Source: Oligoflexia bacterium
Lineage (GTDB): Bacteria; Bdellovibrionota; UBA1018
Direction: 5' to 3'
Length of the DNA: 42,255 nt
Assembly (NCBI GenBank): GCA_903881565.1
Contig: CAIRTR010000147.1
Coordinates: forward strand, 1 to 42,255
Positions 21,186 through 23,685 of this stretch are shown here, in pieces. Position 1 is the stretch's first letter. Each line of letters starts with the position of its first letter. Below the pieces are notes generated by a model, which did not search any database, had not been told where the DNA came from, and saw nothing but the letters and a program-made list of their open reading frames with translations. Position numbers and translations under genes: made by a program.

Positions 21186-21201
21186 TGGCCCAGCCTTCGC
21201 A
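21186..21201 (+). promoter_or_regulatory. sigma54-like -24/-12 element, module 2
   Basis: TGGCCCAGCCTTCGCA; GG/GC spacing matches consensus; predicted +1 ~21212, ATG at 21214. Confidence 0.55.
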
Positions 21202-21213
21202 CACCGTGGCCCC

Positions 21214-21594
21214 ATGCACGATTTACCCTCGCAAGCCCAGAATCTTATAAGCTGTCTCACCTCAAAAGTCCGAAGCGACAACCCTCATTTGAAGCGGCCC
21301 ACGATTGAGGTTGAATTTGATCTCATCGAAGCCGCAAACGCCACGGGAAGACTAACTCTTCATTTAGTTGCGCGTGACCGAAGAACTAGATCCTACATCT
21401 ATCTCGCCGAAACTGACAAAACACCTAACCGATGGATCGGAAAAGAGAGTGAGTTCTACAGTCGAATCTTTCTTTTTGTTAGGCATATCCTTCGCTTTTT
21501 AGAAGGCGAAAATAGCAGCCTGAGCCTATTCGAAAGTGGAACTGCCCTTAAGACGATTGCCAAGCGAGAATTTCAAACCCTTATTCGCCGTTAA
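21214..21594 (+). CDS. Array module 2, family A protein
   Basis: 'MHDLPSQAQNLISCLTSKVRSDNPHLKRPTIEVEFDLI...SYIYLAETDKTPNRWIGKESEFYSRIFLFVRHILRF'. Confidence 0.82.
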   Translation: MHDLPSQAQNLISCLTSKVRSDNPHLKRPTIEVEFDLIEAANATGRLTLHLVARDRRTRSYIYLAETDKTPNRWIGKESEFYSRIFLFVRHILRFLEGENSSLSLFESGTALKTIAKREFQTLIRR

Positions 21595-21997
21595 GACAGC
21601 TAACAAGGCCTGCAACTGATTCTTTCAACTTACTTTCGTTGATCTTATACTTCGGCAACTTTGAGTAGGATGCGTAAGATACAATCTCGGGTTTATGAAC
21701 AAAATTCTCGTAAGCGATAACGAATTTCTTTCCCTTATAGGTAAGTTCCTGATTTCCGTCAGTCATGGTTACGGCTACAAATTTTTGAGTTCCAGGTATG
21801 TGCCACAACCACCTCGTCATGTCATCTCGCTCTTGAAAAAAATGGCGTTTACCAAACGCAACCCCACCTTCAACATCAATCACTTCCTGAACAAAAAGGG
21901 CTTGCTCATTCTTGAATTCGTTAAGTGAATACGAAAGAACTTCTTCATCCGTCTTAAAAAGCATTGGTGATTGCGTCTGTTCCTCGCCTACTGACAT
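21581..21997 (-). CDS. Array module 2, family B protein
   Basis: 'MSVGEEQTQSPMLFKTDEEVLSYSLNEFKNEQALFVQEVIDVEGGVAFGKRHFFQER...CLNGE'. Confidence 0.82.
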   Translation of the reverse strand: MSVGEEQTQSPMLFKTDEEVLSYSLNEFKNEQALFVQEVIDVEGGVAFGKRHFFQERDDMTRWLWHIPGTQKFVAVTMTDGNQELTYKGKKFVIAYENFVHKPEIVSYASYSKLPKYKINESKLKESVAGLVSCLNGE

Positions 21998-22054
21998 GTC
22001 AACGTTTCGGCATCCTAAACGAGATTCTGAATCCCATTTTTGGTCGCGATGATT

Positions 22055-22068
22055 GTCAAAAATCTAAC
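22055..22068. promoter_or_regulatory. Imperfect dyad GTCAAAAATCTAAC in spacer 2
   Basis: Aligned with 21017-21030; 155 nt upstream of the sigma54-like element. Confidence 0.4.
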
Positions 22069-22222
22069 ACCCCAACTCAGATCCGGTTTCGAGCTCCAGA
22101 GTCCGAATTGCAGAGTCAAAGATACGCTGACAGAAAACTCGCAAATCGTTTGGACGCCAATATTGGGTTGTAATTTCCCATACTTCAGTCAGGCTTCAAA
22201 ACCGAAACAACCTGGATACAGT

Positions 22223-22238
22223 TGGCCCAGCCTTCGCA
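22223..22238 (+). promoter_or_regulatory. sigma54-like -24/-12 element, module 3
   Basis: TGGCCCAGCCTTCGCA; predicted +1 ~22249, ATG at 22251. Confidence 0.55.
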
Positions 22239-22250
22239 CACCGTGGCCCT

Positions 22251-22631
22251 ATGCACGATTTACCCTCCCAAACCAAGAACCTTGTAGACTGCCTCACTTC
22301 AAAGGTGAGGAGTGACAACCCCCAATTGAGGCGGCCCACGATTGAGGTTAAATTTGACCTCATGGACGCCAAAAACTATGATGGGGACCTTACACTCCAT
22401 TTAATTGCGCGCGACTGGAGCACCAAATCCTATATCTATCTCGCTGAACTCGAATCTGAAAGCAGCGAATGGGTAGGAAAAGGGAGTGAGTTCTATAGTC
22501 GAATTTACGTTTTTGTCAGGCACATCCTCCGTTTATCAGAGGAGGAAAGCATTGGCTTAAGCCCGTCCGAAAATGGGCGACTACTCGTGGAGACAGCGAC
22601 GCGAGAATTTCAGATGCTCATTCGCCGTTAA
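22251..22631 (+). CDS. Array module 3, family A protein
   Basis: 'MHDLPSQTKNLVDCLTSKVRSDNPQLRRPTIEVKFDLM...SYIYLAELESESSEWVGKGSEFYSRIYVFVRHILRL'. Confidence 0.82.
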   Translation: MHDLPSQTKNLVDCLTSKVRSDNPQLRRPTIEVKFDLMDAKNYDGDLTLHLIARDWSTKSYIYLAELESESSEWVGKGSEFYSRIYVFVRHILRLSEEESIGLSPSENGRLLVETATREFQMLIRR

Positions 22632-23034
22632 GGGCTGACACAAGCCCATGAACGGATTCCTTCAGCTTACTTTCGTTGATTTTGTATTTCGGTAATTTTG
22701 AGAAGGATTTATAAAATACGATCTCTGGCTTACTCATGATATTCGCGTACGAAATAACGATTTTTTTCCCTCTTAAAGTCAAAACCTGTGCCGAGTCACT
22801 CATGGCGACCGCTACATACTTCTTAGTCCCAGGCAGATCCCAGAGCCATCTCCTCATTTCGTTACGATCTTGAAAGAGATGTCTCGTGCCAAACCCAAAC
22901 CCGCCTTCAACATCAATCACTTCTTGAACAAACACGGCCCGCTCTTTTTTGAATTCATTCAGTGAATAAGAAACGACCTCCTCATCCGTACCAAAAACTC
23001 TTTCTGATTGCGTCTGTTCCTCGCCTACTGACAT
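22618..23034 (-). CDS. Array module 3, family B protein
   Basis: Start trimmed to the MSVGEEQTQS Met shared with modules 1 and 2 (track ORF runs upstream to 23127). Confidence 0.8.
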   Translation of the reverse strand: MSVGEEQTQSERVFGTDEEVVSYSLNEFKKERAVFVQEVIDVEGGFGFGTRHLFQDRNEMRRWLWDLPGTKKYVAVAMSDSAQVLTLRGKKIVISYANIMSKPEIVFYKSFSKLPKYKINESKLKESVHGLVSALNGE

Positions 23035-23106
23035 GTCAACGTTTCGGCATTTTGGGCGAAATTCTGAAAACGTTTTTGACTGATTGACGGCTTCGGAGCA
23101 GAGGGG

Positions 23107-23120
23107 GTCAAAGTATTGAC
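23107..23120. promoter_or_regulatory. Dyad GTCAA-AGTA-TTGAC in spacer 3
   Basis: Inverted repeat with different inner sequence from spacer 1; 157 nt upstream of the sigma54-like element. Confidence 0.5.
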
Positions 23121-23276
23121 GCCTCAACTCTTAGTCCAAATTCGAGCCTGGTGGTTCGAGATCCGGAAGCATGATTCATTGGACGTCGAATCCATCGATG
23201 AAAATATCTGCGTCGATTATCCCAACAAAACCGAATGTCCTGCGCCTTTACATAAGGAATCATGAACACGCTAAGT

Positions 23277-23292
23277 TGGCCCAACCTTCGCA
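23277..23292 (+). promoter_or_regulatory. sigma54-like -24/-12 element, module 4
   Basis: TGGCCCAACCTTCGCA; predicted +1 ~23303, ATG at 23305. Confidence 0.55.
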
Positions 23293-23304
23293 CTCAAGCG
23301 CCCC

Positions 23305-23685
23305 ATGCACGATTTACCCTCGCAAACCCAAAACTTAGTAAGCTGCCTCACCTCAAAAGTCCGAAGCGACAATCCTCAACTCAAAAGACCAACTATTGAG
23401 TTGGAATTTGATCTAATCGAAAGGCAAAACTCCTCCGCAAACATTACAAATCACTTGGTGGCTCGGGACAGAAGAACGGGGTCTTACATCTATCTTGCTG
23501 AAACTGAAAAGGACACTGACAAGTGGGTTGGTAAAGACAGCGAATTTTATGACCGCATCTATCTTTTCGTTCGCCACATCCTCGAATTCCTAGCCCACGA
23601 AAGTCCCGACCTAAGCCTATTTGAAAAGGGCTGCATTCTCCGAGAGGTCGCAAAACAGGAGTTTCAGAAAATCATGCGCCTTTAA
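23305..23685 (+). CDS. Array module 4, family A protein
   Basis: 'MHDLPSQTQNLVSCLTSKVRSDNPQLKRPTIELEFDLI...SYIYLAETEKDTDKWVGKDSEFYDRIYLFVRHILEF'. Confidence 0.82.
   Translation: MHDLPSQTQNLVSCLTSKVRSDNPQLKRPTIELEFDLIERQNSSANITNHLVARDRRTGSYIYLAETEKDTDKWVGKDSEFYDRIYLFVRHILEFLAHESPDLSLFEKGCILREVAKQEFQKIMRL

Follow-up and report, generated by a model that had tools for sequence, protein, structure and literature searches.

The window analysed here is the whole 42,255-nt stretch that makes up contig C147 in a draft genome of 4.56 Mb and 323 contigs. The closest named match to one of its proteins comes from 'Bdellovibrionales bacterium GWB1_55_8' (67% identity), which makes a member of the Bdellovibrio group the probable source. 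Four copies of a two-gene module lie in it, each consisting of a family A gene on the forward strand and a convergent family B gene on the reverse strand. The family A genes occupy 20176..20556 (module 1), 21214..21594 (module 2), 22251..22631 (module 3) and 23305..23685 (module 4), and their family B partners occupy 20543..20959, 21581..21997, 22618..23034 (with the ATG at 23034) and 23672..24088, so that in module 1, for example, the two genes share 14 nt at their 3′ ends. Upstream of module 1, also on the forward strand, is a DUF222/HNH-type gene (19127..20167).

Ahead of the family A genes of modules 2, 3 and 4 are sigma-54-like promoters at 21186..21201 (TGGCCCAGCCTTCGCA), 22223..22238 and 23277..23292 (TGGCCCAACCTTCGCA), all on the forward strand and recognized by motif match, paralogue alignment and consensus score. 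The initial annotation had described these sites as TGGCCCA(G/A)CCTTCGCA with GG and GC spaced by ten bases and at one distance from the ATG, and a search of the window recovered them exactly as described (three matches with 0 mismatches, at 21186, 22223 and 23277, against a chance mean of 0.69 even when three mismatches are allowed). Each site reads T, GG, ten bases, GC and A (TGG-N10-GCA), after which come 12 nt and then ATGCACGATTTACC; the distance from the final A to the ATG is exactly 12 nt in all three modules, and none of these spacers contains a Shine-Dalgarno (SD) sequence, as had also been claimed. When the C of the GC is set at −12, the predicted +1 falls 2 nt before the ATG in the window copies (at about 21212 in module 2) and about 3 nt before it in three copies that have a 13-nt spacer. 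The position of the −12 element and its conservation among paralogues thus support the proposed start about 2 nt upstream of the ATG, as a prediction.

Module 1 departs from this arrangement, as its family A gene starts with GTG 8 nt past the stop codon of the HNH gene and is without a promoter of its own. The HNH gene, for its part, is preceded by a perfect sigma-54 consensus (19085..19100, forward strand; TGGCACCCCCTTTGCA), which agrees with the earlier statement that its promoter is closer to consensus and has a normal leader: it matches at 11 of 11 positions, and AGGAGG stands between it and the ATG. The bases after this site (CAGCACCTCCCCC) resemble a family A spacer. The simplest reading is that the HNH gene was inserted between a family A promoter and the family A start codon, in which case the site at 19085 was probably the original promoter of module 1 A, and module 1 would appear to belong to the sigma-54 pattern too. 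The genome holds approximately 40 full or partial copies of the DUF222/HNH-type family, one group of which has a common leader, marked by an extended −10-like TGNTATAGAT near the ATG, and another a conserved CGCGCACTTTCAT...ATGAAAGGA leader with an SD sequence. Sigma-54 control of the HNH family in general was considered and rejected, as the window copy alone, among about 29 upstream regions of paralogues, has a close −24/−12 site.

Family A has ten members in this genome, four in the window and six outside it (one each on contigs C299, C232, C25 and C242 and two on C22), and nine of the ten have kept their own leader. In all nine the start codon is ATG, an SD sequence is absent, and TGG-N10-GCA lies 12–13 nt before the ATG. 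The start codon of the C25 copy is fixed by an in-frame TAG directly before it. When the nine leaders are aligned on the GG, mean pairwise identity reaches 74% within the motif, against 30% upstream (−60 to −5) and 32% in the spacer; T, GG, T, GC and A do not vary, and the C of TGGnnC, like that of TCGCA, is kept in eight of the nine. The spacer is therefore constrained in length, always 12 or 13 nt, and not in sequence. Among the five closest copies, synonymous sites range from dS of about 1 to saturation, against dN of 0.2–0.3. Because flanks and spacers are near random identity and synonymous sites near saturation, the boxes and their spacing are under selection, and the dS and dN values point to purifying selection on both the protein and its promoter, not to recent duplication. 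Modules 2–4 are tandem copies with some common intergenic sequence, from which it could be argued that the likeness is a residue of recent module duplication and has no promoter function. We consider this very improbable, given that unlinked copies with saturated or nearly saturated synonymous sites retain the boxes and nothing else; a duplication artefact as the source of the elements was ruled out on the same grounds, the unlinked, diverged copies and the near-saturated dS. The independence of these observations rests on paralogues and not on other species, since a single genome is the only known source of the two families.

The nine family A leaders and the HNH site all have the 10-nt GG/GC spacing within the sigma-54 consensus TGGCAC-N5-TTGCW and match it at 8–11 of 11 positions. 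Eight of the nine family A copies score at least 9/11 at the permitted offsets, and the ninth scores 8/11. The background rate, taken from a sample of 400 kb of this genome, is 5.9e-5 per position for sites of at least 9/11 with fixed TGG and GC, which comes to about 1.2e-4 per gene over the two offsets. Across approximately 500 kb (this sample, further fetched stretches and the window), only family A has such a site 12–13 nt before an SD-less ATG that opens an ORF of at least 70 aa.

The machinery to read such sites is encoded in the genome. The initial annotation had named absence of rpoN as a finding that would speak against sigma-54 promoters; rpoN is present on contig C237 (PF04552, E=7e-65), its product carries a near-canonical RpoN box (ARRTVAKYRD), and there are approximately 16 strong matches to the sigma-54 activator (bEBP) domain PF00158. 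The consensus TGGCAC-N5-TTGCW itself occurs 29 times genome-wide and once in a reversed control. These perfect sites mostly end in TTGCT, whereas the −12 box of eight family A copies is TCGCA. This departure from TTGCW is one of two observations that would suit a different reading, in which a different sigma factor or regulator binds the element and the resemblance to −24/−12 promoters is coincidental; the other is that a search for a common upstream activator motif from −260 to −34 of the family A copies found nothing above the null (the best 10-mer was in 4 of 7, against 3–4). That reading is improbable, however, as the conserved columns are exactly those of sigma-54, at 10-nt spacing, and rpoN and many activators are present. 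Moreover, the most diverged family A copy, on C242 (34% identical), has TGGAACCCGTTTTGCA at the same position as the other copies and closer to the sigma-54 consensus, so that it and the HNH site both shift towards that consensus. If the family A elements are sigma-54 promoters, those of the TCGCA type, given this departure, may be weak or form a subclass, and the TCGCA box could make them both weak and strictly activator-dependent. Some nif promoters are of this weak, strictly activator-dependent kind.

Where transcription starts is a separate question from which sigma factor is used. Many of the perfect sigma-54 sites sit 24–50 nt before genes with SD leaders, often encoding predicted secreted proteins, and since ordinary leaders follow most perfect sites, RpoN promoters in this genome do not give leaderless transcripts as a rule. 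Together with the fact that the start positions given here are predictions, this would suit an explanation in which the sigma-54 promoters are real and transcription begins elsewhere or from a second upstream promoter, so that the mRNA has a normal leader and ribosomes get to the ATG through SD-independent internal initiation. We regard this as unlikely, though the least improbable of the alternatives: the 12–13-nt spacer is fixed in length while random in sequence, SD sequences are missing from every family A copy, and the region has no sigma-70-like promoters above the number found in shuffled sequences. We also considered leaderlessness throughout the genome as an explanation and rejected it, since it has a modest signal only and leaves the sigma-54 boxes unexplained; in sampled genes, −10-like hexamers 5–7 nt before the ATG were seen for approximately 10% of SD-less genes versus 2% of genes with an SD sequence.

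A further argument against a start elsewhere is that several unrelated genes of this genome have the same spacing. The pattern TGG-N8-TYGCW-N12/13-ATG has 40 matches genome-wide versus 2 in a reversed control, a control that we judged too lenient; approximately 17 matches are estimated for random sequence of even composition, and about 15 of the 40 look accidental (inside genes or at tiny ORFs). Besides the nine family A copies, the credible near-leaderless cases include a transposase-like family at five loci (C44, C146, C205, C299:8427 and C303), some of them truncated. Its members (MK.AHSSQIPKKCYY...) start 13 nt after a site of the TGGCAG-N5-TTTGCT type, and the family is apparently a mobile element. 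An S30AE ribosome-hibernation-type gene (C82:16588; PF02482) has TGGCATAGCGCTCGCA 13 nt before its ATG and an in-frame stop 9 nt upstream. The same spacing is found on C201 and C323 at lipoprotein-like genes (on C323 a stop codon lies in frame 6 nt before the start), on C130 at a lytic-transglycosylase-like gene (an assignment made by eye and not by family search), and on C217 and C321 at genes whose products are predicted to be secreted or membrane proteins. Judged from these sequences, the combination of a sigma-54 site and a near-leaderless start appears to be recurrent in this genome.

The convergent partner has a promoter pattern of its own. Family B also has ten copies, each paired tail to tail with one of the ten family A copies, and the 3′ overlap is 14 nt in most pairs, 26 nt on C232 and 29 nt on C242. 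In the window, FliA/sigma-28-like promoters lie on the reverse strand at 20967..20993 (module 1; TTCAG-N16-CCGAAA, 7 nt before the ATG), 22005..22031 (module 2), 23042..23068 (module 3) and 24096..24122 (module 4). TTNAG-N16-CCGA(T)A or a close variant stands 7–8 nt before the ATG in ten of ten family B leaders, with scores of 8–10/11 against TTAAG-N16-CCGATA, the FliA motif of Bdellovibrio found by 5′-end sequencing (PMC3627812). Although sites of 10/11 turn up at a rate of 6e-6 per position, four family B loci (two on C22 and one each on C232 and C25) have one at exactly this distance from the gene. In the C147 and C299 copies the −10 box, GCCGAAAC, differs from GCCGATAA by two bases. The genome encodes fliA on C54 (TIGR02479, above the curated cut-off). 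Sigma-28 transcription usually starts about 7 nt after the −10 box. Since the ATG of family B is 7–8 nt past that box, its mRNAs are predicted to be near-leaderless as well, and thus both mRNAs of the module are.

At C232:3700-8800 an A/B pair is found immediately upstream of three flagellin genes in tandem; the first flagellin gene also has a matching sigma-28 site, but its leader is long and contains an SD sequence. The extended form TAAR-N15-GCCGATRA has only three sites in the genome, two of which belong to the C232 family B gene and to this first flagellin gene. In the window, the family B genes of modules 1 and 3 have an identical 5′ stretch (20880-20960 and 22950-23035) and are diverged over the remainder, which suggests gene conversion between modules.

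Both protein families appear to be restricted in distribution. No homologues of family A were found among 368 other genomes of the phylum, in GTDB contigs or in viral contigs, and none of family B among the same 368 genomes; searches of family libraries with the A and B proteins gave no match above cut-off. The predicted structure of family A is good (pLDDT 84), with one helix, three strands and two helices, and has no significant match in the PDB. That of family B is poor (pLDDT 55). A sequence match of family B to the designed PDB protein Scone-R was dismissed as spurious, as no stretch of it passed alone.

Taken together, the sequence evidence leads us to favour, with a probability of roughly three in four, the reading that these are genuine sigma-54 promoters giving rise to near-leaderless, SD-independent family A mRNAs, and that family A is one half of a dual-promoter convergent module whose other half, family B, is driven by FliA. 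RpoN-driven transcription of family A would begin approximately 0–3 nt upstream of its start codon, and the resulting near-leaderless mRNA would be translated without an SD sequence. Family B, tail to tail with it, would be read from a FliA/sigma-28 promoter that likewise ends at the ATG. The two-gene module would duplicate as one unit and take both promoters along, so that each copy would respond in two regulatory states, one set by RpoN and dependent on an activator, the other set by FliA. In Bdellovibrio, FliA promoters are those of the attack phase, the motile stage (PMC3627812). More speculatively, A and B could be markers of opposite cell states, or could impose them, for instance through interference between their convergent, overlapping transcripts. 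We put forward only tentatively, as rather less than an even chance, the broader proposal of a lineage-specific dual-sigma life-cycle switch, in which RpoN-driven A and FliA-driven B mRNAs, both near-leaderless, bypass the SD sequence and compete through their 3′ overlap, in a genome where leaderless sigma-54 genes would form a wider class.

There is good documentation of sigma-54 promoters and of leaderless transcripts, each taken separately (PMC3616915, PMC5243855, PMC12340547), and leaderless genes are described in the literature we found mostly for sigma-70-type promoters. In the open-access literature we found no report of a gene family in which a sigma-54 −12 element is held against the start codon, and we claim no priority. 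If the favoured reading is true, activator-gated RpoN transcription can couple directly to SD-independent translation; the module, whose facing sigma-28 gene has the same layout, would lend itself to asking whether alternative sigma factors and cell states go together with leaderless translation, and TGG-N8-TYGCW-N12/13-ATG provides a simple genome-wide rule to find such genes. Compared with known −24/−12 promoters, family A has the expected TGGC-N7-T(T/C)GCA with GG-N10-GC in a genome with rpoN and about 16 activators, but most copies have TCGCA in place of TTGCW and a +1 predicted 2–3 nt before the ATG in place of one upstream of an SD leader. Family B shares its upstream motif with the FliA promoters of Bdellovibrio (PMC3627812) and differs in that its ATG is only 7–8 nt after the −10 box, hence predicted to be near-leaderless. 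Leaderless mRNAs are documented in Leptospira (PMC5243855) and Sinorhizobium (PMC3616915), and leaderless genes in which the −10 region is adjacent to the ORF are described for Deinococcus-Thermus (PMC12340547). The likeness is that promoter or start site abuts the start codon and the SD sequence is absent; the difference, in a comparison made by position, is that the abutting box here is a sigma-54 −12 element for family A or a sigma-28 −10 element for family B. The pairing of a gene with a predicted near-leaderless sigma-54 start and a facing gene with a sigma-28 site looks new.
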